From Croceicoccus pelagius (GTDB lineage Bacteria > Pseudomonadota > Alphaproteobacteria > Sphingomonadales > Sphingomonadaceae), in NCBI RefSeq assembly GCF_001661915.1, contig NZ_LYWY01000037.1:310001-374000 (forward strand): DNA of 64,000 nt, written 5' to 3'. The notes beneath the pieces were generated by a model. The model was not told where the DNA came from. It did no database searches and worked only from the letters and a program-made list of their open reading frames with translations. A program made the position numbers and the translations under genes. Positions 5,836 through 58,369 of this stretch are shown piece after piece; position 1 is the stretch's first letter, and each line of letters begins with the position of its first letter.

Positions 5836-7290
5836 ATGGCATTGGGCCCCCGCCTCGACCTACGGCAGACGCAATCGCTGGTGATGACGCCGCAGCTGCA
5901 GCAAGCGATCCGCTTGCTTGCGCTGTCCAACCTCGAGCTTGAATCGTTCATTGCCGACGCGGTGGCCGACAATCCTCTGGTCGACCTGGCGAACGGCGAA
6001 GGTGAACGCGCCGCCCCTGCCGAAAGCGGCGAGTTGGCTGAAGCCGTGCCCACTGAGGGGCAGGGCGACGGGGAGTCCGCGCTCGACATAGCGGGCGAGA
6101 TGCTGGACCGCGATTTCGACACCGGCTCCTCGCGCAGCAGCGGTTCGGGCGGAGCGGGCGAGGACATGCCCGACATCGGCGAGCGTGCTTCGGGCGATGA
6201 AACGCTGGCCGAATATCTCCACGCACAACTGGGCGCGGCGGGCGGGACCGAGGCGGAGCAGTTCATCGCGCGCCAAATCATCGACCAGCTGGACGAGGCG
6301 GGGTACCTGACGCTCGACCTTGGAGAGATCGCCGAATTGCTCGGCGTATCGATGCAGCTTGCGGAGGCGGGGCTGGCTCTGGTCCAGTCGCTCGACCCGA
6401 CCGGCGTGGGTGCGCGCTCGCTGTCCGAATGCCTTGCACTGCAGGCGAAGGAGGCGGACCGCTACGACCCGTGCATGCAGGCGCTGATCGCGAACCTCGA
6501 CCTGCTGGCGCGGGGCAATTTCGCGCAGTTGAAGCGCATGTGCCGTGTCGACGACGAGGACCTGACCGACATGATCGCGGAACTGCGCAGTTACGATCCC
6601 AAGCCCGGCTGCCGGATCGGCGGCGATGCCGCCCCGCCGGTCGTGCCAGATGTCTTCGTGAAGCCCGACCGCACAGGCGGCTGGGCAATCGCGCTCAACC
6701 GCGACACGCTTCCCCGACTGGTGATCGACCGGCAGTACTATGCCACGCTGAAGGCCGGATGCGGCAAGGACAAGTCGTCGGGCGGCTGGCTGGGCGAGAA
6801 GCTTGCCGATGCCAACTGGCTGGTTAAAGCGCTGGACCAGCGGCAGAAAACGATCCTGAAAGTGGCGAAGGAAATCGTGCGGCGGCAGGAAGGCTTCTTC
6901 CGGCGCGGCGTCTCCGCGCTCGTCCCGCTGACGCTGCGCGATGTCGCCGAGGCGGTCGAGATGCACGAATCGACGATCAGTCGGGTGACTTCGAACAAGT
7001 TCCTCAACTGCGGGCTCGGCACGTTCGAGCTGAAATACTTCTTCTCCTCCGGCGTCGCGTCGGATGGCGACGAAGGCGCGGCATCGGCAGAGGCGGTGAA
7101 GGCTGCGATCAAGGCGCTGATTGACGACGAAAAGCCCGACGCGATCCTGTCGGACGATACGCTGGTCGATCTGCTCAAGGCCAAGGGATATACGCTGGCC
7201 CGACGGACCGTGGCTAAATACCGCGAGGCGGTCGGGCTTGGCAGTTCGGTCCAGCGCCGCCGCCAGAAAAAGCTTCAGGGCGTGCGTTAG
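5836..7290 (+). CDS. rpoN: RNA polymerase sigma-54 factor RpoN
   Basis: Alternative sigma factor for -24/-12 promoters that need AAA+ activators. All parts of the family layout are visible in 484 residues: the Gln/Leu-rich activator-interacting region I (residues 8-40, SLVMTPQLQQAIRLLALSNL), an acidic variable region II (about 50-115), the core-binding domain, the HTH (about 372-395, LRDVAEAVEMHESTISRVTS) and the RpoN box ARRTVAKYRE (about 454-463). It follows lptB closely and overlaps the end of the convergent phosphodiesterase gene by 4 bases. No sigma-54 activator gene is in the window. Confidence 0.97.
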   Translation: MALGPRLDLRQTQSLVMTPQLQQAIRLLALSNLELESFIADAVADNPLVDLANGEGERAAPAESGELAEAVPTEGQGDGESALDIAGEMLDRDFDTGSSRSSGSGGAGEDMPDIGERASGDETLAEYLHAQLGAAGGTEAEQFIARQIIDQLDEAGYLTLDLGEIAELLGVSMQLAEAGLALVQSLDPTGVGARSLSECLALQAKEADRYDPCMQALIANLDLLARGNFAQLKRMCRVDDEDLTDMIAELRSYDPKPGCRIGGDAAPPVVPDVFVKPDRTGGWAIALNRDTLPRLVIDRQYYATLKAGCGKDKSSGGWLGEKLADANWLVKALDQRQKTILKVAKEIVRRQEGFFRRGVSALVPLTLRDVAEAVEMHESTISRVTSNKFLNCGLGTFELKYFFSSGVASDGDEGAASAEAVKAAIKALIDDEKPDAILSDDTLVDLLKAKGYTLARRTVAKYREAVGLGSSVQRRRQKKLQGVR

Positions 7291-8138
7291 GCGCCGGGGC
7301 GTTCCTCGAACATGTGCGCGATCATCGACTGAAGGTTCTGGTCGTAACGGGCCAGCACGGTACGGTCTTCGGCCGTGTCCCAGTGCGTCACCAGTTCGCG
7401 CCCGTTCCAGAAATGCAGCGCATAGGCCGGCGGGTCGGCGACGATCAGCGGGCGCTGATCCGGCACTTCGGTATCGATCTCGGCGAATTCCAGTGCGACT
7501 TGCGGCGCGGTGGACGGCGTCGTCACCACTTCCAGCCCCTGCCATGTGCTGGCCGAGGCGCGGTGGATATGGCCGCAGACCATAGTGTGCACGTTGTCGC
7601 GGTCTTTCAGGCACGCGCCAAGCCGCTTCACCCACGGCTCTTCCGGCACCGTGTTCATCCACGGGATGCCGCATTCGAATGGCGGGTGATGCTGGACGAT
7701 GATCGTCGGAGTATCCGCGTCCTCGTCCAGCCGCTCTGTCAGCCATCGCGCGCGCGTGTCGCAAAAACCGCCGCCGTGGCGGCCGACTTCCAGCGTGTCG
7801 AGCACCAGCAGCCGCATCGGGTCGGTACGCAACTCATATTGCAGGAAGCCGTCGGCCCATTCGTGTTCGGGGAACACTTCGGCAAAGTTCGCGCGGTCGT
7901 CGTGATTGCCCAGTGCCATGTGCCAGGGGGCGGGGAAATCCTCCAGCGCCTCGCGCAGGCGGCGATAAGAATCGATGTCGCCCCGATCGATCAGGTCGCC
8001 CGTCAAAAGAAGCATCGCGGGCAGGGGATTGAGCGCCGCCAGATGTGCCAGCGTGCGGTCCAGCCGCTGGCGGTTGAACTCGCCGGGCGAGTCCGGCTCG
8101 AAGCCGAGATGGATGTCGGTGATCTGGGCAATCAGCAT
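7287..8138 (-). CDS. Metallophosphoesterase, class III cyclic-nucleotide phosphodiesterase type (CpdA-like)
   Basis: 283-residue calcineurin-like phosphoesterase. The full set of dimetal motifs is seen: DIH (residues 8-10), GDLID, GNHDDR, VQHHPP and CGHIHR. This order and spacing match the CpdA / class III cAMP phosphodiesterase group, so hydrolysis of a 3',5'-cyclic nucleotide is the likely reaction; other phosphodiesters are possible. It lies 4 bases after the stop of the FHA-decaheme cytochrome gene and is the last gene of a four-gene minus-strand operon. The first gene of that operon encodes two cyclic-nucleotide-binding domains, so the context supports a role in lowering the signal sensed there. 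Confidence 0.85.
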   Translation of the reverse strand: MLIAQITDIHLGFEPDSPGEFNRQRLDRTLAHLAALNPLPAMLLLTGDLIDRGDIDSYRRLREALEDFPAPWHMALGNHDDRANFAEVFPEHEWADGFLQYELRTDPMRLLVLDTLEVGRHGGGFCDTRARWLTERLDEDADTPTIIVQHHPPFECGIPWMNTVPEEPWVKRLGACLKDRDNVHTMVCGHIHRASASTWQGLEVVTTPSTAPQVALEFAEIDTEVPDQRPLIVADPPAYALHFWNGRELVTHWDTAEDRTVLARYDQNLQSMIAHMFEERPGA

Positions 8139-8142
8139 CGCA

Positions 8143-9999
8143 TCACCTCATCGACACCTGCTTGCGACGGTTGGCATCGGCTTTGGCGATTGTCTTCGGT
8201 GCCTTCGACATCCAGGGCGGGCCGTCGTCGGCGTGATAGTCGTGGCACATCGCGCAATCGCTCTCGACCGGGTGCTTCACTTCGGTCAGCGAAGCGCCGG
8301 TGCCGCCGACATGGCAGGTCCGGCAACCGCCTTCGCCGCCAAGTCCGGGGATGAGCACGCGGCTGGCATCGTTGCTGCGCGTCGCGTCGACGTGGCATTC
8401 GGTGCACGCGTACTTCGTGTGTGCGTCGTGGGTGAACCAGCCCATCGCGAGATAGCGGTTGTTCTGGACGGCGGGGACGATGTCGAAGCCGTTGGTGACC
8501 GCCGGACCGTCGCGCGTGATGACGTGGCAGTCATAGCAGGCCCCGCCTTTCGAGAAGACACGCGTGACCGCCCCGTCGGCGCGGGTCGGGTAGAACTGCA
8601 CCGCGCGGGCGAAATCGCGGGCGGTGCGCTGCGATGCGCCGTCGCCGGGCGAGCGGCGCGCCATGCCCGACAGGCTGGCGGGACGCGGCGGATTGCCGGA
8701 ACGATAGAAGGCTCGCAGGTCCGCGGCGACCAGTTCGGGCTCACCATGGCGCAGCGTGCGGGTTGTGCCGTCGATCATTTCCAGCCCCAGCGCGTGGCAG
8801 GACTGGCAGCTGTCTTCCATCTTTACCGGCTCGAACCGGACCTTCGTGGAATCGAGCGTATGGCAATCGGCGCACTGCATCGCGTCGCGGCCGTCGTATT
8901 CGCCCGGACGGCGGCGGACCATCTGGGCGACGCCGCCGGTCTTGCTCATGTGTTCGGCATGCGTGAACTTGAGGCCATTGTCCTCACGCGCGGTCTTGGT
9001 CAGCGTCATGCGCTGGAACACCGGCTTGTCACCCGGCTGGACGACGAGCGCGGGGTGGAACTCGGGATGGCCGGTTCCAAAGTCGCTCGCATCTGGCAGT
9101 TTCGTGTCCGGCAATCTCTTGCTCATCCCGTCATGGCAATCGGTACAGAACTTCTGGGGTGTGTCCTCCATAGCGCCAGCGCCGGTATGCTCGATGTGAC
9201 ATTCGACACACCTGCCTGCGGGACGGTTGAAACCTTCGGCCACGGCGCGCTGGAACTGGCCGAACGCGCCGGGTTCGCCGCGCGCCGCGACGAGGCGGGC
9301 GGTGGCGTCGTTGGCGGCGAGCCCCGAGATATGCGCGTGGGCGTCATCCTCGTGGCAGGTCGTGCAGGCATTGTCGCGCACCGCGACGAAGGCATCGACG
9401 TGACAGGCCTGGCAATCGTCCTTGAGTCCGGCGTGCGCGAGCGTCAGGTCGCCCGAGGACCAGATCTCGTCCCCGTGATAGCCCGATCCGCGCTCCTTCT
9501 CGCCCTTGTGCGTCATGTAGGCGCCGATAGGCCACGCAAGGCAGGCAATGAGCACGAGGATCGCAAAGCCCCATGCCGACATGCGCTTGCCGGGCATCAG
9601 GCCCTTCAGTGTATAGACGCTGCCGAGGTCCTTTTCTTCCGAAACGTCGGAGATCGCCTCGACCCGGCGGACGGTGAAGACCGGCACTCCGCCATCGCCA
9701 CGTTCGACGTTTATGCGGTGGCCGCCGAAGGTCAGCTCCGCACCGCGCGAAAGGTCTATGGCGCGGCGGTTCACGCTGCGTCCGTTCATCCCGAACGGCT
9801 GGTCGGCGATGGATTCGACGAAAAGTTCGCCGTCCTTCATCACCGCGCGCGCATGGCGCGGGTCGACGGCAAGGTCGGGCAAGTGAATGTCGCACGACGC
9901 ATCGCGCCCGATGGTGATTGTGTCGCCATCTACGGTCGTGGGGCGGACGATTTCCTCCCCACTGGCCTTGAGCGCGATCTGGCGGATAAGAAAGGTCAT
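8143..9999 (-). CDS. FHA-domain / decaheme c-type cytochrome fusion
   Basis: 618-residue membrane-anchored protein. Residues about 22-110 form an FHA domain (TIGRDASCDIHLPDLAV, then FGMNGRSVN), predicted cytoplasmic. Residues about 142-162 are one transmembrane segment, and the rest is periplasmic with ten CxxCH heme c sites: CQACH (196-200), CTTCH, CVECH, CTDCH, CADCH, CQSCH, CYDCH, CTECH, CRTCH and CAMCH. Many other His residues could be distal ligands. The FHA core has Asp-Pro-Arg-His where the usual phosphothreonine-contacting Ser-x-x-His would be, so phosphopeptide binding may be changed or lost. It starts 10 bases after the cytochrome b gene. No characterised protein with this architecture is known to me. 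Confidence 0.88.
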   Translation of the reverse strand: MTFLIRQIALKASGEEIVRPTTVDGDTITIGRDASCDIHLPDLAVDPRHARAVMKDGELFVESIADQPFGMNGRSVNRRAIDLSRGAELTFGGHRINVERGDGGVPVFTVRRVEAISDVSEEKDLGSVYTLKGLMPGKRMSAWGFAILVLIACLAWPIGAYMTHKGEKERGSGYHGDEIWSSGDLTLAHAGLKDDCQACHVDAFVAVRDNACTTCHEDDAHAHISGLAANDATARLVAARGEPGAFGQFQRAVAEGFNRPAGRCVECHIEHTGAGAMEDTPQKFCTDCHDGMSKRLPDTKLPDASDFGTGHPEFHPALVVQPGDKPVFQRMTLTKTAREDNGLKFTHAEHMSKTGGVAQMVRRRPGEYDGRDAMQCADCHTLDSTKVRFEPVKMEDSCQSCHALGLEMIDGTTRTLRHGEPELVAADLRAFYRSGNPPRPASLSGMARRSPGDGASQRTARDFARAVQFYPTRADGAVTRVFSKGGACYDCHVITRDGPAVTNGFDIVPAVQNNRYLAMGWFTHDAHTKYACTECHVDATRSNDASRVLIPGLGGEGGCRTCHVGGTGASLTEVKHPVESDCAMCHDYHADDGPPWMSKAPKTIAKADANRRKQVSMR

Positions 10000-10009
10000 C
10001 TTGCCGCCC

Positions 10010-10975
10010 TCACCAGTAGAAGAACACGGAAACGATATGGGCGGACAGCGCGGCCAGCAGCGCGAAAGTCACCGGCACATGGACATAGAGCCAAAGCTGC
10101 AAGAGCGACTTCAGCCGCAAGTGACGGCGCAGGCGCGCGAGCATCGCTTCCTTGCGGGTCAGCAGGGCATCGACGCGGTCCAGCGGATCATCGGCCACTC
10201 GCGGGCGGAAGGCGCGCGCCTCGCGCAAGGTCGCCGCGGCGCGGCGGGTGGCGCAGTTCGGATAGCGCGCCGTCACGCGGTTCCAGATCGAACCGTCGAA
10301 GGGGTCCTGCTCTAGGCTCTTTTCGACGACCGCGGCGTCTTCTGCCGTCAGCGGCTGGGCGGCATCGTGGATCTGGCGGTCGAGGCTGCGCAGCTGTTCG
10401 ATCATCTGTTTTTCGGTGACCGCGCCGTCTTCGTCATAGCGGTTTTCGGACAGCGCTTGCGGCAAGGTCCAGTAGAACCAGATGCCGAACATGCCCGATA
10501 CGATGACTATCATCATCAGCGCCCAGGCAAGCGTGTGAACGTTCCAGCCAAGATCGAAGCCGGTGTGCAGCGTGGCGACGACGATCAGCGAGAGGCCGAG
10601 ATAGACGTGCGCGCTGGTCCACGCCTTCAGGCTCCACGTCCCCGGCGTCATTGCACGCTTACGCACGCCCAGCAGCGTCAGCCACACGATCAGCCCCGCG
10701 CTGATGGTGCCAAGCGTATAGCCGAGCCACGTCCCGCCGAAATGCTGTGCGGGCAGGGGCGCGAAAATGTACGCAAGCAGCGAGACGAGGCAGAGCACCC
10801 CTGCAACCTTCCACCAGCGACCGTTCGCATAAGACAGGAAGCTGTCGTGGCTCGTCACTTTGTTGCGGCGGGTGCACCGGCGCAGGCCAAGCTTGCGCTT
10901 GCGCGTGTCGGTGCTCGTCGTGTCCTCGGCAGTTGCCGCGGTTTCGGTCGGTTCAAGTCCCGGAAGGCTCGCCAT
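10010..10975 (-). CDS. Membrane diheme cytochrome b-like protein
   Basis: 321-residue integral membrane protein starting at ATG 10975 (MASLPGLEPT), overlapping the upstream flavoprotein stop by one base (TGATG). It has about five transmembrane helices. One carries HVYLGLSLIVVATLH and the last carries HVPVTFALLAALSAH: in both, two His are 13 residues apart. H-x13-H in two helices is the classical arrangement for two stacked b hemes spanning the membrane. A soluble, charged loop of about 110 residues lies before the last helix. No longer family name is certain. It sits between a cytosolic flavo-iron-sulfur protein and a periplasmic decaheme protein, so it probably carries electrons between them. 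Confidence 0.82.
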   Translation of the reverse strand: MASLPGLEPTETAATAEDTTSTDTRKRKLGLRRCTRRNKVTSHDSFLSYANGRWWKVAGVLCLVSLLAYIFAPLPAQHFGGTWLGYTLGTISAGLIVWLTLLGVRKRAMTPGTWSLKAWTSAHVYLGLSLIVVATLHTGFDLGWNVHTLAWALMMIVIVSGMFGIWFYWTLPQALSENRYDEDGAVTEKQMIEQLRSLDRQIHDAAQPLTAEDAAVVEKSLEQDPFDGSIWNRVTARYPNCATRRAAATLREARAFRPRVADDPLDRVDALLTRKEAMLARLRRHLRLKSLLQLWLYVHVPVTFALLAALSAHIVSVFFYW

Positions 10976-13566
10976 CACGCGCCCTCCGTTTCGGACTTGA
11001 GGCGTGCAACAGTCAGGAACTCGTCCGGCGCGACGCGGATCGCGGCTCCGGTCGGGCAGGCGCGGACGCAGGCCGGGCCGCCGTCGATGCCGGCGCACAT
11101 GTCGCACTTGATCGCCTTCTTGCGGTCCAGCGCCTCGTCATGCGCAGGATCGCCGTTGTAGGGCATGTTCTTCTTCGACCACTTGTAGGGCGGCTCGCCC
11201 GGCCCCGGCCCCTTGCCGAAGAACAGCCACGACAGCAGCGAGGGTTTCTTCGGCGGCACCTTGTCCATGCGGATCACGCCATAAGGGCAATTGCGCTGGC
11301 AATTGCCGCAACCGATGCAGGTATCGTCGATGAAGACTTCGCCGTCCGGCCCGCGGTGGATCGCGTTGGGCGGACAGTCGGCCATGCAGTGCGGATGCTC
11401 GCAGTGGCGGCACGATGTCGGCACGTGGAGATGCGCGAAGCTCTTGCCCGCCTCCCGGTCCAGCCGCGACAGCCCTTCGTGCGCGTCGGCGCAGGCCTTT
11501 TCGCAGTTGTCGCAGCCAACACACAGCTTCTCGTCGATCAGCAGGACGTCGGTCGCTTCGCCAAGGCCTTGCGACACGAGGAACTTTGCCTGTTCGGAAT
11601 AGAGATCGACGACGCCCGAAAAGCTGTCCTTCTTCGATTCGATCAATGCATTGGTGCGGCGGCGCACGTCCATCTCGCGCCGGGCCTTGTCCATCAACGC
11701 GGGCTTTGCGGCGAGGACGCGCTCGAACGCCTCACCGTCGATCTCGATGACCTCGCTCTTGATCGCGGCTCGGACCGTGGCGGTGCGCTGGCCGCCGTCG
11801 ATCAGCGCCATTTCGCCGACATAACTACCGGCAGGAAGGTAGGAGAGAAAGACCGGTTTGCCGCCGACTTCCTTTTCCACAACCATCGATCCGACGCGGA
11901 TGACGAAGATGTTTTTTCCGTCCTCGCCCTCGTTGATGATCGCCTGCCCCGCGAGCACGGTGCGGATCTTCGCGGTTTCGACCACTTCGGCAATGTCGGC
12001 GGGCGTCAGGCCCGATCCGAACATCTGGAGCAGCTGGCGCTCGGTACTGATACGCTCGATCTCGCGCTTGGCGGGCGGGACCTGGCTCATCAGTTTCAAC
12101 GCGGCGTTGCGGCTGATCTCGACGCAGATCGTGGGCTCTGCCGCCACGATCGTCGCGCCGCGACGGCGTCCGGAAATCAGGCCGACTTCGCCGAAGATCG
12201 TTCCGGCAGGGATCGGCACGACTTTCGATGCATCGTTCGGGTCGATCTGCACGTGGACCTTGCCCTCGGCAATCGCGAAGAGCGAGGACCCCGGCGCGTT
12301 CTTCTCGAACACGACTTCGCCCGGCGCATAGCTTCGCACGTCGGAATCGAGCATGAACTCGCGCATCTGCAGCGGGCTCATGTCCTTGAGGATCGAGATG
12401 CTGGTGCGCAGGACTTCGAGCCATTCGTCGACCGAGCGGCCCTTGGGCAGACCTGCGAACTTTTCGGCCAGAAGCGGCTCGTCCGCCGGTTTCAGCTCGG
12501 TATTGCCGTTGATGAACTCGACGACGTCATAGCCCTGGTTCATGCAGTGCTTGATGAGCGGATAGCCGGCCAGCGCGCCGATCACGAAGATGCCGGGGGC
12601 GGTCGTTTCGAACACCGGCGACAGTTGGGGGAAGGCCAGCCGGTCGTCGCTGGTAAAGGCGATGCCGCAGTTTTCGACGAATGCGCGGGGCGGGGCTGAG
12701 CCGATACGCGCGATCACGCGGTCGCAGCGGATCTTCTCCTCGCCGTCGCGGGTCGACAGCGTCGCCCAGCCGGGTTCGAGTTCCTTGACCTCGGTCTCGT
12801 ACCGGATGGTCAGCTTGCCGTCGGCATCGTCCTCGACCAGCGCCTTGGCGTTGGGTTCTTTCGCGTTGGCAAAGCTTTCACGAACGTTCGTGGACTTCGG
12901 TTTGCGGTTGAGGATCGAGACGACGTTGCCCTGCGCCGAATCCTCGGCAAGTCCGCGCGCATTCTCGATACCGGCATCGCCCACGCCGACGACGATAACG
13001 TGTTCGTCCAGAACCTCGGTCGGATCGTCCAGCTGGTAGGTCACGTGCGGCAGATCGCCGCCCGGACAGCGCATCAGGTTGGGGTTGCCCTGCGTGCCGA
13101 TGGCAAGGATCACCGTATCGGCGATCAGCTTCTCGCCACTGGTCAGTTCAAGCTCGTAAGGGCCTTCGTGGCGCTGCAGTTCCTTGACGTCTTTCGTGCC
13201 GTCGCGGTTGCGCTTCACGATCTGCTGCACACTGTCGGGGATGGCGGGACCGGTTCCGCGGATCGCCTTCACCTCGGCGTTGTACTTGACGTTGATGCCC
13301 AGTTCGGACGTGCGCGCGTTCCACTTGGCGAGGATGTCCTCGCGCTTGCCCGCGTCGAATTCCTGGTCGGATCGCAGGATAAGCTGCGACGGCGTGGCCA
13401 TCACGTGCTTGCCCTTCTGGTACTTGTAGATCGTGTCCGACAGGTGGTCGGTCTTTTCCAGCAGGACGTGGCTCAGCCCAAGCGCGGCGGCGCGGCTGGC
13501 CGCGCTCATCCCCGCCGGGCCAGACCCGATTATCGCTACCCGGAACGTGTCGGTCACCGTTCCCAT
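10975..13566 (-). CDS. FAD/NAD(P) oxidoreductase with two cyclic-nucleotide-binding domains and four [4Fe-4S] ferredoxin sites
   Basis: 863-residue cytoplasmic multidomain protein. Residues 10-340 are a pyridine-nucleotide oxidoreductase with an FAD motif (GSGPAGMSAA, 14-23) and a second dinucleotide motif (VGVGDAGIENA); there is no CxxC redox pair. Residues about 395-505 and 515-640 are two cNMP-binding beta-barrels (FGEVGLISGRRRGATI; YVGEMALIDGGQRTATV). From 680 on there are 16 cysteines in four clusters: CVGCDNCEKAC, CRHCEHPHCMADC, CIGCGNCQRNC and CDMCAGIDGGPACVRAC, as in NrfC/DmsB-type subunits. It is the first gene of the operon. The likely role is moving electrons from NAD(P)H to a membrane cytochrome under cyclic-nucleotide control; the direction is not provable from sequence. 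Confidence 0.9.
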   Translation of the reverse strand: MGTVTDTFRVAIIGSGPAGMSAASRAAALGLSHVLLEKTDHLSDTIYKYQKGKHVMATPSQLILRSDQEFDAGKREDILAKWNARTSELGINVKYNAEVKAIRGTGPAIPDSVQQIVKRNRDGTKDVKELQRHEGPYELELTSGEKLIADTVILAIGTQGNPNLMRCPGGDLPHVTYQLDDPTEVLDEHVIVVGVGDAGIENARGLAEDSAQGNVVSILNRKPKSTNVRESFANAKEPNAKALVEDDADGKLTIRYETEVKELEPGWATLSTRDGEEKIRCDRVIARIGSAPPRAFVENCGIAFTSDDRLAFPQLSPVFETTAPGIFVIGALAGYPLIKHCMNQGYDVVEFINGNTELKPADEPLLAEKFAGLPKGRSVDEWLEVLRTSISILKDMSPLQMREFMLDSDVRSYAPGEVVFEKNAPGSSLFAIAEGKVHVQIDPNDASKVVPIPAGTIFGEVGLISGRRRGATIVAAEPTICVEISRNAALKLMSQVPPAKREIERISTERQLLQMFGSGLTPADIAEVVETAKIRTVLAGQAIINEGEDGKNIFVIRVGSMVVEKEVGGKPVFLSYLPAGSYVGEMALIDGGQRTATVRAAIKSEVIEIDGEAFERVLAAKPALMDKARREMDVRRRTNALIESKKDSFSGVVDLYSEQAKFLVSQGLGEATDVLLIDEKLCVGCDNCEKACADAHEGLSRLDREAGKSFAHLHVPTSCRHCEHPHCMADCPPNAIHRGPDGEVFIDDTCIGCGNCQRNCPYGVIRMDKVPPKKPSLLSWLFFGKGPGPGEPPYKWSKKNMPYNGDPAHDEALDRKKAIKCDMCAGIDGGPACVRACPTGAAIRVAPDEFLTVARLKSETEGA

Positions 13567-13751: not shown

Positions 13752-14717
13752 GTGGTGACGGGAATGGATGGCGTGGCATCGAGCAAGGGTAGAACGATCG
13801 CGCGCTGGGTGCTGGGCGGCGCGGCGCTGATCGCGGCGGGCGCTGTGGGCTATTCCATCGTGCGCAACGACACCATGCCGGTGCAGCAGGTGGCGGACGA
13901 AGCGGGGGAACAGGCATCCGTCGCCCAGATGATCGCAAAGCTGGAAGCCCGGCTGGCCCAAAGCCCCGACGATGCCGAAGGCTGGCGGATGCTCGGCTGG
14001 TCCTATTTCCAGACCGGCCGCTATGCCGAGGCGGCAACCGCCTTCAAGCGCGCGACCACGCTCGACCCCGACAATGCCGAAAACCATTCGATGTTGGGCG
14101 AAGCGCTGGTTCTGGCCAGCCGCGATGGCAAAGGCCTGCCCGCCGATGCCCGCTCCGCGTTCGATCGCGCGCTTGCGCTGGACCCGGCCGATCCGCGCGC
14201 CCGTTATTTCCGCGCCGTCGCGATCGATCTGGAGGGCAAGCACGAGGAAGCGATCGAAGCCTGGTTCGACCTGCTGGAGGACACCCCCGCCGACGCGCCC
14301 TATGCCGCCGATGTGCGGCAGGTCATCGCCGAAGTCGCGAAGGCCAACAACATCGACGTTGCCGAGCGCCTTGAAAATGCCAGCTTCGCCCCGCCCAGCG
14401 GCGGTCTGAAGACCGACGGCGCGGCAACCGCCACGGCGGGCATTCCGGGGCCGAGCGCATCGGACATCGAAGCGGCGAAGTCGATGTCGGCCAGCCAGCA
14501 GCAGGAAATGATCCGCGGAATGGTCGACCGGCTGGCGGCCAAGCTTGAGGAAGACCCGCTCAACCCCGATGGCTGGATCATGCTGATGCGCAGTCGCGTA
14601 CAGATTGGCGACATAGCCGGTGCACGAGAGGCGCGGGACGAATCGCTTCGTCTTTTCCGCAACGACGGGACGACGACGCGCCGCCTGCGCGAGGCCGCGG
14701 GCGCGCTAGGCCTTTAG
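13752..14717 (+). CDS. TPR protein, CcmI/CycH-like cytochrome c biogenesis factor
   Basis: 321-residue protein with one N-terminal transmembrane helix (about residues 19-38) and tandem TPR units (AEGWRMLGWSYFQTGRYAEAATAFKRA and a second near 130-165; a further unit near the C terminus, NPDGWIMLMRSRVQIGDIAGAREAR). This layout is that of the periplasmic part of CcmI/CycH, which holds apocytochrome c for heme ligation. GTG 13752, GTG 13755 and ATG 13764 are all possible starts. It diverges from the decaheme cytochrome operon, which would need heme c maturation; the rest of the ccm genes are not in the window. A general TPR scaffold is the alternative. Confidence 0.78.
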   Translation: MVTGMDGVASSKGRTIARWVLGGAALIAAGAVGYSIVRNDTMPVQQVADEAGEQASVAQMIAKLEARLAQSPDDAEGWRMLGWSYFQTGRYAEAATAFKRATTLDPDNAENHSMLGEALVLASRDGKGLPADARSAFDRALALDPADPRARYFRAVAIDLEGKHEEAIEAWFDLLEDTPADAPYAADVRQVIAEVAKANNIDVAERLENASFAPPSGGLKTDGAATATAGIPGPSASDIEAAKSMSASQQQEMIRGMVDRLAAKLEEDPLNPDGWIMLMRSRVQIGDIAGAREARDESLRLFRNDGTTTRRLREAAGALGL

Positions 14718-43200: not shown

Positions 43201-43287
43201 GCCCAGATGGCGGAATTGGTAGACGCACCGTCTTCAGGTGGCGGCGCTGGCAACGGCGTGGAGGTTCGAGTCCTCTTCTGGGCACCA
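43201..43287 (+). tRNA. tRNA-Leu(CAG)
   Basis: 87-base class II tRNA: acceptor stem GCCCAGA/TCTGGGC, anticodon loop TTCAGGT (anticodon CAG), long variable arm, T-arm GGTTCGAGTCC and encoded CCA. It reads CUG. Its 3' end is the likely insertion site of the mobile element that follows. Confidence 0.96.
43261..43287 (+). other. Probable attachment site (attL) in the tRNA-Leu 3' end
   Basis: The integrase gene starts 165 bases after this tRNA and points away from it, as in tRNA-targeting integrative elements. These enzymes usually recombine within the T-arm/acceptor part of the tRNA. The matching attR repeat is not found in the window, so the exact core is not defined. Confidence 0.5.
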
Positions 43288-43452
43288 TTTGTTCTTCTCA
43301 CGTTCTCCCAAATAATCTATAAAACCCGCAGAAATCCTAGGGATTTGGCCCTTGGATCGTTCCGGATCGTCCCGCCTGTTCTCGGGGGTTCCAGACACTT
43401 TTGTGGGCCTTTTGAGGCCATTTCGCAAAGGCCCAGATGAAAAGGCCCCCAC

Positions 43453-44676
43453 GTGCCGCTGACAGATACTCGCCTCCGCGCACTCAAGCCCAAGGATAAG
43501 CCGTACAAGGTAACCGATGAGCGCGGCCTATATGTTGAGGTCACGCCGACCGGCGGCAAACTTTGGCGATTCCGATACCGGATCGGCGGAGCGCAAAAGA
43601 AGCTCTGCATCGGCAGCTATCCCGACATCAGCCTCAAGCAAGCGCGAGACGCGGCCTACGAGGCACGACGAGCTGTTGCTTCTGGGGGCGACCCGGCCTT
43701 TGAGAAGCGGAAGCGGAAAATCCGCGCAGAGTTCCTTTCTGCACAGACGTTCGAGGCAGTCGCACGTGAGTATATTGAACAGATGATGGTCCAGAATGGC
43801 CGCGCCGATGGCACGATCGTCAAGGCCAATTATTTCCTCGACAAGCTTGCGCCTGCCATCGGGAACCGACCCATCGACGAGATCGAGCCGTTCGAAGTCC
43901 TGGCTCCCCTCAAACGACTGGAAGCCACTGGTAAGCACGAGACTGCGAAGAAATGCCGCTCGTTCGCAGGCCGCGTGTTTCGCTACGGTGTTGCTACCAC
44001 CCGCTGCAAATCCGATCCGACCAGTATGCTGAAGGGCGCTCTCGTAACGCCGAGAGTCACGCATTATGCAGCAATCCTCGAGCCCACCGAGCTAGGCGGG
44101 CTGCTGCGCGCAATCGACGACTTCACTGGCTACATGGTGACGAAGTTGGCTTTGCAGATAGCGCCGCACGTGTTCGTACGCCCCGGCGAACTCCGGCACG
44201 CCGAATGGCATGAGATCGACCTCGTCGATGGGGTCTGGAAGATCCCTGCCGGTAAAATGAAAGCGCGCCGAGCGCATGCCGTCCCGCTTTCCAAGCAGGT
44301 TAGAGGCTATCTCACTGATCTGGCCGAGATGCTCGGCCGCGAAGGATATGTTTTCCCATCTGCGCGCAGCTCCAAGCGTCCCATGAGTGAAAACACGCTC
44401 AATGCCGCATTCCGTCGCATGGGATACTCGAAGGAAGAAGTCACCGCGCATGGACTCCGGGCGACAGCATCGACATTCCTCAACGAGTCGGGCCTTTGGA
44501 ATCCCGATGCGATCGAGCGTGCCCTGGCACATGGCGACAGCAATGTTGTGCGTGGCATCTACCATCGCGGCAAACATTGGGAAGAGCGCGTGCGCATGGC
44601 TCAATGGTGGAGCGACTACCTCGATGAGCTCCGGACAGGAGGAAAGGTCATCATGGGAAAGTTTGCGAATGGTTGA
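43453..44676 (+). CDS. Tyrosine-type site-specific integrase
   Basis: 407-residue phage P4-like integrase starting at GTG 43453. Residues 1-90 are an arm-type DNA-binding domain (DUF4102; LYVEVTPTGGKLWRFRYRI), about 100-190 a core-binding domain, and 205-395 the catalytic domain with Arg in VRPGELRHAEW, HGLR in TAHGLRATAST and the nucleophile Tyr in VVRGIYHRGKHWEER. It inserts and excises the element at tRNA-Leu(CAG). Downstream the region turns to convergent minus-strand genes. Confidence 0.95.
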   Translation: MPLTDTRLRALKPKDKPYKVTDERGLYVEVTPTGGKLWRFRYRIGGAQKKLCIGSYPDISLKQARDAAYEARRAVASGGDPAFEKRKRKIRAEFLSAQTFEAVAREYIEQMMVQNGRADGTIVKANYFLDKLAPAIGNRPIDEIEPFEVLAPLKRLEATGKHETAKKCRSFAGRVFRYGVATTRCKSDPTSMLKGALVTPRVTHYAAILEPTELGGLLRAIDDFTGYMVTKLALQIAPHVFVRPGELRHAEWHEIDLVDGVWKIPAGKMKARRAHAVPLSKQVRGYLTDLAEMLGREGYVFPSARSSKRPMSENTLNAAFRRMGYSKEEVTAHGLRATASTFLNESGLWNPDAIERALAHGDSNVVRGIYHRGKHWEERVRMAQWWSDYLDELRTGGKVIMGKFANG

Positions 44677-44696
44677 TCGGAAGAACGAATTTCTTC

Positions 44697-44801
44697 TCAG
44701 CCAGTGCAGGATTGAAGGCTCAGGACCAGCCCTGTCAGGAACACTGACGCGAGCAGGGCGAACTCAATTCTGATGCCCCATACCTTAAGCCACTTCCGCA
44801 T
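44697..44801 (-). CDS. 34-residue predicted membrane peptide
   Basis: A short open frame from ATG 44801 to TGA 44697-44699. It begins MRKWLKVWGIRIEFALLASV and continues as one hydrophobic helix, ending with a Cys three residues from the C terminus. A TGAGG ribosome-binding sequence sits at the stop codon of the upstream DUF6961 gene, 11 bases before the ATG, so coupling is likely. It would be the last gene of a minus-strand unit (lytic transglycosylase, nuclease, DUF6961). No homologue is known to me; it could be a chance frame. Confidence 0.4.
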   Translation of the reverse strand: MRKWLKVWGIRIEFALLASVFLTGLVLSLQSCTG

Positions 44802-44812
44802 CGTGCCGAGCC

Positions 44813-45007
44813 TCAGTTCGTAGAGCTTTGGCAGCTAAGCTGATCGAAGCGCTCAGCAACAGTCTTCCACGTTGCTATGCCTGCCTCGTCCCCTTCGTTG
44901 GATAGCCGCTGGATTTGCTGCGCGATATACGCGGTTCCCTTTTTGCCATGGTTCTTTTCGACCCAGAGTGCGACGGCCCACAATTCCTGATCGCGGTTCA
45001 GCACCAT
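44813..45007 (-). CDS. DUF6961-like small protein
   Basis: 64-residue helical protein: RDQELWAVALWVEKNHG, then YIAQQIQRLSNEGDEAGIATW. I recognise this as the DUF6961 type that recurs on sphingomonad mobile elements and chromosomes; no function is known. It overlaps the end of the nuclease gene by 10 bases, so the two are coupled. Confidence 0.75.
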   Translation of the reverse strand: MVLNRDQELWAVALWVEKNHGKKGTAYIAQQIQRLSNEGDEAGIATWKTVAERFDQLSCQSSTN

Positions 45008-45549
45008 GGTTCACGCCTCCCGGTCCAGGTTCGCGCCAGGCCTTCGCTGACCAGCTGATCGCCAAGCGAGCGGCCGCCGCGCGTTACAACCCGCAATTTG
45101 CGACCGTACTGATCCTCATCTCTGCTCCCGATAGTCCTCAGTTCAAAGGGCCCGTCATTGAGCAATTCGACAAGGCGGTGCGTCGCGCGCATGCCGAGCT
45201 GGTATTCATAGTCGCAACGAGGCTCGCTGATCTCGGGAGTGTCGATGTCGGCAATCCGGATCTTCACGCCATCAAGCCACAAAGTATCTCCATCCACGAC
45301 GCATGTGCGTCGGATGGATCCGCAGATGTTGAATTGTGGGGAGCTTGCTTGCTGGAATAAAGCCTGAGGCTGCTGATCGTCGTTAGCAAGGCTGGCATCA
45401 TGGACTGGCCAGTTGAGTGCCAGCATCCCTCCAGCAAATACGATCGCGAATGCTCCCAAACCCAACGCGATCTCCTTTCTCAGCTTCCGGCGCTTCTGTG
45501 TCTTCAACGCCTTGCGAAAGTCGAACGGCTCACCGGGGGTCTCATTCAC
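44998..45549 (-). CDS. Thermonuclease (SNase) family protein, membrane anchored
   Basis: 183-residue protein with a basic N-terminal tail, one transmembrane helix (about 27-46) and an SNase domain: CVVDGDTLWLDGVKIRIADI and DTPEISEP contain the DGDT and R-x-x-D-x-x-E residues, and DQYGRKLRVV carries the third catalytic Arg. The domain would be periplasmic. It lies between a lytic transglycosylase and a DUF6961 gene in the element. SNase genes of this type often accompany conjugation genes; whether it processes DNA during transfer is unknown. Confidence 0.87.
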   Translation of the reverse strand: MNETPGEPFDFRKALKTQKRRKLRKEIALGLGAFAIVFAGGMLALNWPVHDASLANDDQQPQALFQQASSPQFNICGSIRRTCVVDGDTLWLDGVKIRIADIDTPEISEPRCDYEYQLGMRATHRLVELLNDGPFELRTIGSRDEDQYGRKLRVVTRGGRSLGDQLVSEGLARTWTGRREPWC

Positions 45550-45613
45550 TGGCGTTGTCCGTCTTCATTCCGGCACATGATTTCAGACAATAGCCGGAAA
45601 TCAGGTAGTTTCG

Positions 45614-46198
45614 TCAATTGTACGTACCAATTGCTTGCCAACGTCCCAACACAGACCGGACATATTGCGGCGTTTCACCATTGTTGGGAATGCCGCGTGA
45701 TCGGGAGACGGCACCTGGGCCAGCATTGTAAGCAGCCAAGGCCAGGTGGACCGCGTCGAACCGGTCCAACATATCGCGAAGGTACCTGGCGCCACCGTCG
45801 ATCGATGCAAGAGGGTCATGACGGTTCCGGACGCCCAGTTCTCTCGCCGTGGCCGGCATAAGCTGAGCCAGCCCGGCAGCACCGGCCGGACTCACAGCCA
45901 TCGGATTGAAGCGGGACTCAGCCCAGATAAGAGCACGAAGCAGGTTGGTCGGAAGCCCGTAACGGCGTTCAGCCTCGGCTATCGCCGCCATATACAAGCC
46001 TTCCCGGTAGGATACGTTTGCTGGCTCGGCCTGGTAGATTGCAGGAAGATATTCCCTTGCCGGCTGCTGGTCCGCCTTCGGCGGAACGATCGCGTGCTCG
46101 AACAAGGTGAAATCCTGGGCGCGAACTTGCTGTGAGGAGGTCGCGATCATCCCCAGACAGGCGACCGCTAGCGCGGTCAGACAATTGAGGCAGGTCAT
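45614..46198 (-). CDS. Lytic transglycosylase (SLT domain), VirB1-like
   Basis: 194-residue exported muramidase-type enzyme starting at ATG 46198 (MTCLNCLTALAVACLG), with a signal peptide ending QVRAQ. The SLT fold shows the catalytic Glu in ALIWAESRFNPMAVS, then GAAGLAQLMPATARELG and LALAAYNAGPGAV. It probably opens peptidoglycan for a type IV secretion channel, as VirB1 does; the channel genes are not in the window. It is the first gene of a short minus-strand unit. Confidence 0.9.
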   Translation of the reverse strand: MTCLNCLTALAVACLGMIATSSQQVRAQDFTLFEHAIVPPKADQQPAREYLPAIYQAEPANVSYREGLYMAAIAEAERRYGLPTNLLRALIWAESRFNPMAVSPAGAAGLAQLMPATARELGVRNRHDPLASIDGGARYLRDMLDRFDAVHLALAAYNAGPGAVSRSRGIPNNGETPQYVRSVLGRWQAIGTYN

Positions 46199-46336
46199 CT
46201 CGACTTGTGCTCCATTGATTCGAATCGAAAGAGAACATAAAAAGAACATGTGCCTGTAGGAAAGCCGCGAATGCCTGCCTTTGGGAGAGGAGAGGAACGC
46301 TGATGAGGGGGCCATTTTGCATGCTGAGGAGCTCGC

Positions 46337-47245
46337 ATGTCCCTGTCAGTCCAAACTCATCCCAACCGGTCGCTTGCCGAGACCGCCCGTCGTATCTGCG
46401 AAGCGCGAGGGGGCAAATGGTCCGGCACAAAGGGCATGGCTTGTTGCCCCGCGCATGATGACCGCACGCCGTCCCTTGGTGTGACGCTCGGCCAAAAGGC
46501 CATCCTCTTCCACTGTTTCGCGGGATGCGATCAGCAGAGCGTGCTGGCTGCTTTGGCGCGTGAAGGTTTCGAAGCACCGGCGCTTTTTTCAGCTTCTGCG
46601 ACCACCAACGAACCCGAATCGACCAGCACCCGCAAACCCTCGGCGGCAGCGCTGAGGATCTGGCGCGATGCGCAGCCACTGCGTGCCAGTCCGGCAAAGG
46701 CATATCTTGAGAGCCGCGGCATCCTCGCCGTATCGCCGGCGCTCCGCTTCCACCCACGAACGCCGCTTGGTCCGAAGGGACGCACTCGCTTTTTGCCCGC
46801 CATGATTGCGGCAGTCAGCCTCGACGAGGGGCCGATCGCCATCCATCGCACATTCCTTTCGGGCGACGCCAAGGCCGACTTCGAAAAACCGAAGCGCGCG
46901 CTCGGCGCGCTCGATGAAGCTGCTGCCCGTCTCTTCGCTCCGGTTTCCGGCAAGCTCGGCCTTGCTGAGGGAATCGAGAGCGCGATGTCGGCCTATGCTC
47001 TCACCGGTATTCCCGTCTGGGCGACCCTGGGCAATGAGCGCTTCGGCCTCGTCAGCGTGCCCGAGAGTGTGGCCGAGCTTCATCTCTTCGTCGATCATGA
47101 TGCTGGCGGCGAGCTGGCCGCGTCGCGTGGCCTGGCCGCTTATGCCCGCGATGGGCGAACGATCCACGTTCGCAAACCCTCATCACACGACACCGACTGG
47201 AACGATGAACTGACAGCATGGCTGCGCCGCAAAGCGGCGCGGTAG
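46337..47245 (+). CDS. CHC2 zinc-finger / Toprim primase-like protein
   Basis: 302-residue primase-like protein. Residues about 35-72 look like a DnaG-type CHC2 zinc domain (CCPAHDDRTPSLGV; HCFAGCDQQS). Residues about 208-290 are a Toprim domain with Glu in GLAEGIESAMSAYALTG and the acidic pair in LFVDHDAGGE. It lacks a DnaB-binding tail. It likely primes or processes element DNA after entry. The plus-strand gene run starts here; the next gene follows after a 75-base structured leader. Confidence 0.87.
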   Translation: MSLSVQTHPNRSLAETARRICEARGGKWSGTKGMACCPAHDDRTPSLGVTLGQKAILFHCFAGCDQQSVLAALAREGFEAPALFSASATTNEPESTSTRKPSAAALRIWRDAQPLRASPAKAYLESRGILAVSPALRFHPRTPLGPKGRTRFLPAMIAAVSLDEGPIAIHRTFLSGDAKADFEKPKRALGALDEAAARLFAPVSGKLGLAEGIESAMSAYALTGIPVWATLGNERFGLVSVPESVAELHLFVDHDAGGELAASRGLAAYARDGRTIHVRKPSSHDTDWNDELTAWLRRKAAR

Positions 47246-47320
47246 AGGAGAGAGAGCTTCTCGAATTCCTGATCCGGCAGAGGGCGTGTCCCAATGCCCC
47301 CATCAGGAGGACGAATTGCC
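47246..47320 (+). promoter_or_regulatory. Structured leader of the strawberry-notch gene
   Basis: TCCTGAT (47267-47273) is the exact reverse complement of ATCAGGA (47302-47308), which is part of the ribosome-binding site ATCAGGAGG. A small hairpin GAGA-GCT-TCTC (47252-47262) lies before it. The start ATG is at 47321. The same layout is seen before ardC, the DUF2493 gene and the gene at 63278. Confidence 0.55.
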
Positions 47321-50300
47321 ATGTTTCAATCAGACCTGTTTCCAGCTGGCGAGCAGTTGTCGTCAGTGCCATTGGCCTACGCCATCGGCACCAGGATTGC
47401 CGAGCTTCTTGCTTCGGGACGTCATCTTGCCCGTGCGGACATTTCCGGCTTGTTTGCCCAAGAGACTGGCGTCTTAGACTGGGGAAGCGCCTGGACGATC
47501 GACGACTACAACAACGCGGTCGAGATCGGCGCGCTGCTCTGGCTTCGAGAGTCCTCACGGATCGATCTGGCGACGAATGTACACGAAGCCGAAGCGCGGT
47601 TCGACTGGCTCGAAGCAGCCTTGCCGCCGCGGCACGTTCGCAGCGAAGCACAGGTCGAGCTCCAGCAGTTCTCGACCCCGCCAATGCTGGCCTGGCTGAT
47701 GGCGAAGGCCGCAGCTGTCTCGGCGCAAGACACGCTCCTCGAACCGTCCGCAGGCAATGGTGCCCTTGCTCTCTGGAGTTGCCTCCAGAACGCTTCGCTG
47801 CTCCTCAACGAGATCGATCCGGCAAGACGAGACGGTCTGGCCCACGTCTTCCCTTCGGCCACCATCGCTGCGCATGACGGGGAACTTATCGCCGACCTGC
47901 TTCGCGGCCCTGTTCCGTCTGCCGTGCTGATGAACCCGCCGTTCGCTCACAGCCTGGAACGCGGCAAGGACGGCGGCACGGCGCAGCGCCACCTGCGCAG
48001 CGCGATCCGGGCCGCTGCCGATGGGGCGAGGATTGTCGCCATCATGCCCGAAGGCTTCGATGCTTCCACCTTCGCCGAGGCACAGGACGAAGCGTCGCTT
48101 CTCCTCGATGTGCGGCTGCAGCAGATGTTTCGCCGAACTGGGACAGGTATCGCCGTTCGCCTGGTCGTGTTCGACAAGACGCCGACTGCGCCTGCGTCAG
48201 CGATCACCGGAGATACCGCCGACCTGATCGGACTCCACGAGCTTATCACTGCGCTTCGGCCCCGCGCGCAGACATCAGGCAACATTCATCGTCTGCCAGT
48301 CGGCAAACCTATGCGCCTTGTGGGCAAGGCTTCGACCCAACGCACGCCGGTCCGGCCGGTGGCGCCGTTCGCAGCGACACCAGAAGCCACAACAAATACA
48401 ATCGATCTTGCCTATTCGGTCCTCGCCGACCCCGCACCGGTGCCTGAACAGGCAGGCATCTACCTGCCTTACCGGCCCAGCCGCATCGCGTTCGAGGATG
48501 CGCCGGTCCATCCTACCCCGCTCGTGGAATCGGTCGCCATGGGTTCGGTCACGGCACCGCAGCCCGAAGTGCGGCCGCTTCTCCCTGCAGGCTGGCAAGC
48601 CGATGGCCTTTTATCCGAGGCTCAGTGCGAGACACTGGTCTACGCTGCCCAGGCATTTGCGCGCGATCTTCCGGGCCTGTTCAAGGTCAGCCAGGAAGGT
48701 ACCGCGCTCCAACTGTCCGAAGACGGGCACGCATACCGCCAAGGCTTCTTCCTTGGCGACGGAACCGGAGCGGGCAAGGGACGACAGATCGCCGCGGTCA
48801 TCATGGACCGCTGGCTCGCAGGTGAGCGCCGCCATATCTGGATCACCAAGAACGAGGCGCTGCTCGAAGATGCGCGCCGCGATTGGGAAGCGCTTGGCGG
48901 GCTGCCGCTCGATCTCCAGCCACTCTCACGCTGGAAACTTGGCCACCCTGCAACGATGTCCGAAGGCATTCTCTTCGTCACCTATCCGACGCTGCGCTCG
49001 TGCCGCGCCGAGGATACGCGGCTCGACCAGATCCTTGCCTGGGCGGGCGAGGATTACGATGGCGTGATCGCTTTCGACGAAGCCCACGCCATGGCCAATG
49101 CGCTCGGGGGCTCTTCAATCCGCGGCAAGGTCAAGGGCTCCGAACAAGGAATGGCGGGCCTCAGGCTGCAGAACCATCTCCCGCGCGCCCGCGTGCTCTA
49201 CGCGTCTGCCACTGGCGCTTCGGATATCGCCAACCTCGGTTACACCTCACGGCTTGGTCTCTGGGGACCCGAGACCGCTTTTCCGACCCACGAGGCGTTC
49301 ATGACCGAGATCCGCGCTGGCGGCGTCGCGGCGATGGAGCTTGTCGCCCGCGACCTAAAGGCTCAGGGTCTCTATCTCGCCCGTGCGCTGTCCTTCGCCG
49401 GGATAGAGTACGAGATCCTCGAACACAGCCTGACCGACGCGCAGGTGAAAATCTATGATGCCTATGCCGAGGCCTGGGCAATCATTCACCGCAACCTCGA
49501 AGCTGCACTCGAAGCAACCCGCGTGGTCGACGAGGACAGCGGCGATACACTCAATCGCAACGCCAAGGCTGCGGCGCTCTCAATCTTCGAAGGTACCAAG
49601 CAGCGCTTCTTTGCCCAGCTCCTGCTCTCGATGAAATTGCCTAGCCTGATCCCTGCAATGGAAGCGGCGCTTGGCGAGGATCATTCGGTTGTCGTGCAGC
49701 TGGTCTCGACCGCAGAGGCCATGCTCGACCGGCGCCTTGCCGACCTTACCGTGGAAGAACGCGAAGCGCTCGATATCGATCTCTCACCGCGTGAATATGT
49801 CATCGACTACCTCACGAAGAGCTTCCCGGTACGATTGATGCAGGTCTTCGCCGACGAGGACGGCAATCTTCGCTCCGAGGCGATGAGCGACGGAGAGGGC
49901 AATCCCGTTTTCTGCCCGCGCGCCATTGCTGCGCGCGATGCGCTGATCGAACAGCTTTGCGCACTGCCGCCCATCGCCACTGCGCTCGATGCGATTATTG
50001 AACATTTCGGAACCGACGCCGTGGCCGAAGTCACGGGCCGGACCCGCAGGCTTGTCCTGGGCCGCGATGGTGAGCAGCGCCTCGAACGGCGTAGCCCCAG
50101 CGCCAATGTTGCCGAAGCCCAAAGCTTCATGGAAGGGACCAAGCGCATCCTGGTCTTCTCGGATGCGGGCGGCACCGGGCGTTCCTATCATGCCGACTTG
50201 GGCGCCAGGAACCAGCAGCGCCGGGTTCACTTCCTGCTTGAACCGGGATGGCGCGCCGACAACGCCATCCAGGGTCTTGGTCGCACGAACCGCACCAATC

Positions 50301-51568: not shown

Positions 51569-51672
51569 TCCTTAGGGCAGACCCCAATCTCAGAATGAGA
51601 GTGGAGGGAGCCCTTTGGGCTTGTGGGCCTCGTGATCCTCACCTGCGCCTTCCTTCCATCAGGAGAACACCC
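51569..51672 (+). promoter_or_regulatory. Structured leader of the parB-like gene
   Basis: Two small perfect hairpins are seen: TCTCA-GAA-TGAGA (51588-51600) and AGCCC-TTT-GGGCT (51609-51621). The leader ends with CATCAGGAGAACACCC before ATG 51673, almost the same as the ardC leader (CATCAGGAGAACTCCC). The strong anti-Shine-Dalgarno arm of the other leaders is missing here; only a 4-base CCTG/CAGG match is seen. Confidence 0.45.
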
Positions 51673-58331: not shown

Positions 58332-58338
58332 GCGGGAG

Positions 58339-58369
58339 CCTATAGAACCTCCAGTCACTGGAGGATCAA
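58339..58369 (-). promoter_or_regulatory. MerR-type promoter and operator of the metal genes
   Basis: Read on the minus strand, -35 TTGATC (58369 to 58364) and -10 TATAGG (58344 to 58339) are 19 bases apart, the long spacer typical of MerR-controlled promoters. The spacer holds a perfect dyad CCTCCAGT-C-ACTGGAGG (58348-58364 on the plus strand). The CDF start is 7 bases beyond the -10, so the transcript would be nearly leaderless. Confidence 0.85.

Follow-up and report, generated by a model that had tools for sequence, protein, structure and literature searches.

We analysed a 64-kb window from Croceicoccus pelagius (64,000 nucleotides; NCBI RefSeq assembly GCF_001661915.1, contig NZ_LYWY01000037.1, positions 310,001 to 374,000 of the forward strand). 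The subject is a cluster of four minus-strand genes at 7287-13566, here called genes 1 to 4. Coordinates are positions in this window unless prefixed with G or L, which denote other genomes or loci. Genes 1 and 2 overlap by one base (TGATG at 10973-10977; the ATG of gene 2 uses one base of the gene 1 stop codon), genes 2 and 3 are separated by 10 bases, and genes 3 and 4 by 4 bases. An earlier sequence-only reading had described a compact operon for a flavoprotein with cyclic nucleoside monophosphate (cNMP)-binding and iron–sulphur (Fe–S) domains, a membrane protein with Hx13H motifs, a forkhead-associated (FHA) decaheme cytochrome and a CpdA-like phosphodiesterase. Its positions, overlap and gaps all proved correct, and Pfam matches together with conserved residues bear out the list of parts.

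Gene 1 (10975-13566, 863 residues) encodes a flavin/NAD(P) domain followed by two cNMP-binding domains and a ferredoxin-like domain with 16 cysteines; in Pfam it matches Pyr_redox_2/3, PF00027 twice (117 bits) and Fer4 domains. The domain for flavin adenine dinucleotide (FAD) and NAD(P) (residues 8-345, 12532-13545; PF07992, 80.7 bits) is of the YpdA/thioredoxin-reductase-like type. It does not contain the CxxC motif of thioredoxin reductase, CxxC being confined to the Fe–S part. The nearest solved relatives found by profile search are structures of YpdA, a bacillithiol disulfide reductase (E 4.5e-30). Gene 1 nevertheless differs from YpdA in its fusion to cNMP and Fe–S domains and in its score, 109.5 bits against a cut-off of 339.9. 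The first cNMP-binding domain (residues 411-495, 12082-12336) has E460 and R469 in its pocket and the second (about residues 535-620, 11707-11964) has E585 and R594. Both match PF00027, both contain the GE...R phosphate-binding cassette, and the pockets are of the PKA/PKG type. The Glu and Arg residues of the two cassettes (GEVGLISGRRRGAT, GEMALIDGGQRTAT) are invariant in all 25 close and all 26 distant homologues, a set of 51 in which other families are included. The binding residues implied by the sequence-only reading are thus kept, which suggests that both pockets are intact; they are predicted to bind cyclic nucleotide. The four-cluster 4Fe–4S domain of the HycB/DmsB type (residues 675-841, 11044-11544) matches PF13247 with 47.5 bits (cut-off 26.2). 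Its 16 cysteines form four 4Fe–4S-type motifs and are invariant in the same 25 and 26 homologues. In a structure model of the gene 1 protein the flavin and cNMP domains are good.

Gene 2 (10010-10975, 321 residues) encodes a membrane protein with two predicted b hemes. The AlphaFold2 model has five long membrane helices, with a mean predicted local distance difference test score (pLDDT) of 82. Two WxxxHx13H motifs lie on helix 3 (W119, H123 and H137; 10565-10621) and on helix 5 (W295, H299 and H313; 10037-10093), all six residues being invariant in 25 close and 27 more distant homologues, and an SGxxG motif lies on helix 4. Pfam gave a sub-threshold match of the b561 type and no match to PF01794 (ferric reductase/NOX). 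No relative was found among the PDB sequences with the gene 2 profile, and none by Foldseek with the model at E 0.001. VIA-align returned helical bundles, among them cytochrome b561 (Z 7.2) and STEAP4 (Z 6.6), both within background. NADPH oxidases and ferric reductases (PF01794) share the general plan, in which FAD passes electrons from NAD(P)H to a transmembrane pair of b hemes whose ligands come from two Hx13H motifs. However, they have neither the Fe–S relay nor the multiheme c acceptor of the system formed by genes 1 to 3.

Gene 3 (8143-9999, 618 residues) encodes an FHA domain, a single membrane anchor and a decaheme cytochrome c. The FHA domain (residues 28-92, 9724-9918; PF00498, 28.7 bits, cut-off 20.7) is placed on the cytoplasmic side, and cytochrome c3/c7 domains were also matched. 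Ten CxxCH motifs, present in 25 of 25 aligned homologues, lie within 8224-9435. Exactly ten further His residues outside the CxxCH motifs and outside the FHA domain are invariant in these 25 sequences. These are candidate distal ligands, which would fit electron-transfer hemes with bis-His coordination. In the FHA domain GR is invariant, whereas the Ser of SxxH is not conserved (the position is mostly E, N, D or M) and the separate Asn contact is present in only 11 of 25, so that a role in reading phosphothreonine is doubtful. With 23.3 bits against a cut-off of 192.2 for TIGR03508, the DmsE/MtrA-type decaheme family, gene 3 falls outside the MtrAB/MtoAB/PioAB decaheme family as judged by this profile. 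A forkhead-associated decaheme protein, cluster 403, has been tabulated for 27 Gallionellaceae genomes but is not discussed there (PMC10734462). It is probably homologous to gene 3, given the FHA domain and ten hemes, although the two are likened by description only. Unlike gene 3, it is a table entry tied neither to a cNMP flavoprotein nor to a function (PMC10734462).

Gene 4 (7287-8138, 283 residues) encodes a CpdA-like class III phosphodiesterase (PF00149, 69.4 bits, cut-off 21.5) and is the only match of its family profile in its own genome. The metal-binding residues D-x-H, D, NH, H and H-x-H are invariant in 24 homologues, and the solved structures matched are Rv0805 and relatives. Gene 4 shares the fold family and metal residues of CpdA and SpdA but stays below the curated score of either equivalog (SpdA, 141.5 against 400; CpdA, 78.7 against 225). 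A role in 2',3'-cNMP hydrolysis, suggested by SpdA as the nearest curated model, was ranked lower because relatives of gene 4 adjoin class III cyclases.

The cluster is conserved beyond chance. In 147 genomes of the order Sphingomonadales, gene 2 had matches of 50-73% identity in 24 others from the same family. All 24 retain the order of genes 1 to 3 (hereafter the core) and 23 have gene 4 next. The sole exception, G105 (L049), has gene 4 elsewhere, beside a class III cyclase and an outer-envelope module described below. All four genes stand in order in 71 of 80 named loci, and in eight of the remaining nine the contig ends within the cluster or close to it. The co-occurrence proposed by the sequence-only reading therefore holds across genomes. 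The named carriers in the public collection belong to Novosphingobium, Blastomonas, Sphingobium, Erythrobacter, Sphingorhabdus, Sandarakinorhabdus and relatives. Outside the family, searches of class- and phylum-level samples with the gene 2 profile added 28 genomes in which genes 2 and 3 lie together; gene 1 accompanies them in 26. Linkage of the core thus spans the Alphaproteobacteria and some other Proteobacteria, whereas among the genomes examined gene 4 adjoins the core directly only in Sphingomonadales. Two genomes contain a natural fusion of genes 1 and 2 in a single frame of 1120-1125 codons (L213:3046-6420 and L214:5344-8703); the decaheme homologue beside it has nine CxxCH motifs. 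The fusion bears on the contacts between subunits that the sequence-only reading expects. The neighbour families c7, c10, c24 and c14 around the core were set aside, being mostly artefacts from antisense open reading frames (ORFs).

A second locus, on another contig of the same genome, encodes the outer-envelope module (L224:3144-12944, corresponding to G000:C32:485143-494943). It consists of a tetraheme c554-type cytochrome, an HbpS-like lipoprotein, an outer-membrane barrel and an LVIVD-decaheme cytochrome with ten CxxCH motifs. In at least 16 other genomes the core adjoins this module (HbpS-like protein, barrel and LVIVD-decaheme cytochrome). The LVIVD-decaheme gene is next to the core in 13 of the 24 family loci, and most loci outside the family show the core followed by the HbpS-like protein, the barrel and the LVIVD-repeat cytochrome. 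At L196, L203 and L205, homologues of the core stand instead beside pentaheme and barrel genes resembling those of PCC4, a putative conduit considered below; L205 has no gene 1. Identity between L196 and L216 is 59% for the pentaheme gene and 47% for the barrel gene. The occurrence of two alternative outer modules with one core indicates that electrons pass between the core and an outer-membrane device, in one direction or the other.

The only PF00211 protein of the C. pelagius genome is a class III cyclase with a CHASE2 domain (L227:4658-6769, corresponding to G000:C32:467657-469768), encoded about 15 kb from the outer module. It carries DKFVGD and YTALGD, whose Lys/Thr pair we take to be the adenylyl class IIIb signature. 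CHASE2, an extracytoplasmic sensor domain, is present in the cyclases examined. In G105 and G849 the phosphodiesterase gene adjoins the cyclase gene. A single stretch of G798 contains cyclase, tetraheme cytochrome, HbpS-like protein, barrel, LVIVD-decaheme cytochrome, phosphodiesterase and the three core genes. The C. pelagius cyclase is followed by a gene for about 250 residues without a Pfam match, conserved in five of the loci examined.

The distribution of the components was compared in the same 139 family genomes with five queries (core, LVIVD cytochrome, HbpS-like protein, PF00211 cyclase and gene 4). The core was found in 46 genomes, the LVIVD-decaheme cytochrome in 47 and strong matches to the HbpS-like protein in 47; weak HbpS matches (E around 1e-4 to 1e-7) and a marginal gene 2 match in G835 (E 2.4e-4, 39 residues) were left out. 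Every one of the 46 core carriers also has the outer module; the sole mismatch is one extra occurrence in G801, a genome only 67% complete. The class III cyclase, counted by PF00211 as the cyclase class searched, is present in 56 genomes, comprising all 46 carriers and 10 of 93 non-carriers. The phosphodiesterase, counted with the gene 4 profile, is present in 50: all 46 carriers and four of the 93 non-carriers, all four of which also have the cyclase. Carriers stand beside non-carriers in four genera (g1, g485, g487 and g492), within which all components are present or absent as a set. In 37 of the 46 carriers the cyclase lies within 30 kb of the core or the outer module, compared with about three (3.1) expected by chance. 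At the level of sequence, linkage of core, outer module, cyclase and phosphodiesterase is well supported.

We propose, with a probability of roughly 55%, that the core forms the inner-membrane half of a conduit that leads electrons across the envelope, with an activity set by cyclic AMP (cAMP). NAD(P)H would be oxidized at the FAD domain of gene 1, and the electrons would travel along its four Fe–S clusters and cross the inner membrane by way of the two b hemes stacked in gene 2. On the periplasmic side gene 3, with its ten c hemes, would accept them and hand them to the separately encoded outer module, with its tetraheme cytochrome, HbpS-like lipoprotein, barrel and LVIVD-decaheme cytochrome. 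When cAMP occupies the two cNMP domains, the step from flavin to Fe–S would open or close; the domains could alter this step since they sit between the two. The CHASE2 class III cyclase would produce the signal on a stimulus sensed outside the cytoplasm, and gene 4 would break it down. Domain make-up, invariant cofactor and ligand residues, conservation of the operon, linkage of core and outer module and co-occurrence of cyclase and phosphodiesterase can be read from the sequences themselves; from these we infer cofactor loading, electron direction, cAMP as the ligand and gating by its binding. The electron conduit suggested by the sequence-only reading gains from the agreement between gene fusions, operon conservation, ligand residues and linkage to the outer module. 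Its idea of control by cyclic nucleotide is strengthened by the invariant pockets and by a cyclase and a phosphodiesterase that track the core across genomes. That the operon constitutes the system stands in part: it supplies the inner half, but it is not self-contained, since the outer-envelope module belongs to the machine.

Because two pockets are intact and cyclase and phosphodiesterase accompany the conduit from genome to genome, cAMP probably switches it on or off. More tentatively, and with slightly less than even confidence, we suggest that the CHASE2 adenylyl cyclase, the dedicated phosphodiesterase and the cAMP-binding gene 1 protein form a closed loop that gates electron export directly and allosterically, and that this is the main reason for class III cAMP signalling in the family.

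Several points weigh against the proposed cAMP-set conduit. The Fe–S part of the gene 1 model is of low confidence and free of cofactors, and the fold comparison of the gene 2 model yields no decisive match. The co-occurrence counts, such as the 46 of 46 for core and outer module, take no account of phylogeny. Among loci outside the family, L210 alone has a relative of gene 4 in the stretch with the core, at a distance of about 5 kb and not adjacent, and in the loci examined outside Sphingomonadales no cyclase lies within about 8 kb of the core. Outward electron flow is favoured because redox potentials and membrane potential would both drive it, an argument from thermodynamics only, and a quinone may take part in the chain.

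Direction is the matter of the main rival explanation, by which the same conduit runs in reverse, from an extracellular or periplasmic donor such as Fe(II) or Mn(II) through the outer module to quinone or NAD(P)+. Related PCC3 and PCC4 clusters come from iron oxidizers and were modelled as electron uptake to quinone (PMC5566968), and the tabulation of the FHA-decaheme cytochrome cluster for 27 Gallionellaceae genomes (PMC10734462) points the same way. A flavin/NAD(P) domain at the cytoplasmic end, however, would make uptake to NAD(P)+ doubly uphill, against redox and membrane potential. Most named carriers, moreover, are Sphingomonadales genera, which to our knowledge are not known as lithotrophs, and we regard reversed flow as unlikely. 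Somewhat less likely still is that the conduit operates without direct gating. The cNMP domains, which lose ligand binding in some cases, would then be structural or vestigial and cAMP would work only through a CRP-type transcription factor on the genes. Linkage of cyclase and phosphodiesterase is also compatible with this, but the invariance of Glu and Arg of both pockets in 51 homologues, other families included, argues against it, as does the presence of three cNMP domains in the related PCC4-like Fe–S subunit. Finally, a ccmI-like gene (13752-14717, plus strand) is divergent from gene 1. Of the 24 family loci, 19 have ccmI in the vicinity of the core and a few have ccmF, as might be expected if the proteins supplied reductant for cytochrome c maturation or for periplasmic thiol or heme chemistry and were no trans-envelope conduit. 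Yet ccmI also adjoins PCC3-like genes in genomes of the order that lack the core (L057, L060 and L061), and the core is perfectly matched in its occurrence by the outer-membrane module; we consider this explanation very improbable.

The proposed conduit is best compared with PCC3 and PCC4, putative porin-cytochrome conduits described by He et al. (2017; PMC5566968). Gene 2 has every published hallmark of their inner membrane protein (five helices, SGxxG and two WxxxHx13H motifs). The sequence-only reading knew of no described system of this make-up, a claim that goes too far, as the membrane subunit and some of the other genes have a precedent in the putative PCC3 and PCC4 conduits (PMC5566968), and FHA-decaheme proteins had been tabulated before (PMC10734462). 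According to He et al. (2017; PMC5566968), PCC3 and PCC4 proteins have no significant overall homology to each other. In hhalign comparisons of the membrane subunits, however, with PCC3-like and PCC4-like sets defined by gene content and not by the reference sequences of He et al., the gene 2 family matched the PCC4-like set with 98.9% and the PCC3-like set with 98.0%, and the two sets matched each other with 96.6%.

Like PCC4, the window cluster combines a membrane subunit of the gene 2 type with a decaheme cytochrome and an upstream Fe–S gene (pfam13247, subgroup II). It differs in the fusion of the flavin/NAD(P) domain to the Fe–S subunit in gene 1, in the FHA domain of gene 3, in the linkage to phosphodiesterase and cyclase and, in this genome, in an outer module of another make-up that includes the HbpS-like protein. 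PCC4 clusters encode multiheme cytochromes with 4, 5 and 10 hemes, whereas here the cluster has only the decaheme protein and the tetraheme is at the second locus. There the LVIVD-decaheme cytochrome stands where PCC4 has a pentaheme, no genome-wide search for a pentaheme having been made. The window cluster contains no barrel gene; BLASTP at 1e-3 matched the second-locus barrel to none of the PCC4-like barrels, with distant homology still possible. The PCC4-like Fe–S subunits in L216 and L217 have three cNMP domains each; He et al. (2017; PMC5566968) mention neither cNMP nor FHA domains in their main text.

PCC3 shares a homologous membrane subunit and a separate gene for a 4Fe–4S flavoprotein nearby. 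Its multiheme cytochromes have about 21 and about 34 hemes and are accompanied by a porin, against ten CxxCH motifs each in gene 3 and the LVIVD protein. Individual cytochromes at PCC3-like loci carry about 20 to 49 hemes, and the search for cNMP domains at these loci found none. Such clusters also occur in the order (L057:7598-13326, L056 and L058-L064), with up to 24 and 49 CxxCH motifs in adjacent ORFs and a 4Fe–4S flavoprotein. At L058 an ankyrin-repeat gene lies between the flavoprotein and membrane protein genes.

Porin-free clusters that combine periplasmic multiheme cytochromes with a membrane protein of the Hx13H type and a further redox protein were deemed less likely to be extracellular (PMC5566968). 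The present core may be one of these clusters; for the family of genes 1 to 3, linkage to the outer module argues against this judgement. From the sequence comparisons, the whole looks like a new form of putative porin-cytochrome conduit, one that has a flavin entry and, to all appearance, its own cAMP control loop. In the open-licence literature we found no account of a cAMP-controlled conduit or of a combination of cNMP domains, multiheme cytochromes and FHA domains. The same literature yielded nothing on Novosphingobium multiheme cytochromes or LVIVD multiheme proteins, and nothing relevant on a Sphingomonas CHASE2 adenylate cyclase.

Elsewhere in the window, the region 43201-53646 resembles by eye a tRNA-borne genomic island, in which a tRNA-Leu (cag) precedes an integrase-like ORF (43453-44676) and large ORFs that look plasmid-like. 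At 55765-58358, within the presumed island and also noted by eye, an iron permease-like ORF with one CxxCH lies beside an ORF for a cation transporter of the CDF (cation diffusion facilitator) type.

Control of extracellular or trans-envelope electron transfer is known so far to be mostly transcriptional. If the proposed loop of cyclase, phosphodiesterase and cAMP-binding flavoprotein is real, it would be a direct on/off switch on the flow of electrons out of the cell, and conduits of the PCC3 and PCC4 type would thereby gain an electron entry from the cytoplasm. The conduit would occur in many ordinary aerobic Sphingomonadales, which are not usually regarded as electron exporters, and their otherwise puzzling cAMP system would be tied to a single physical target.

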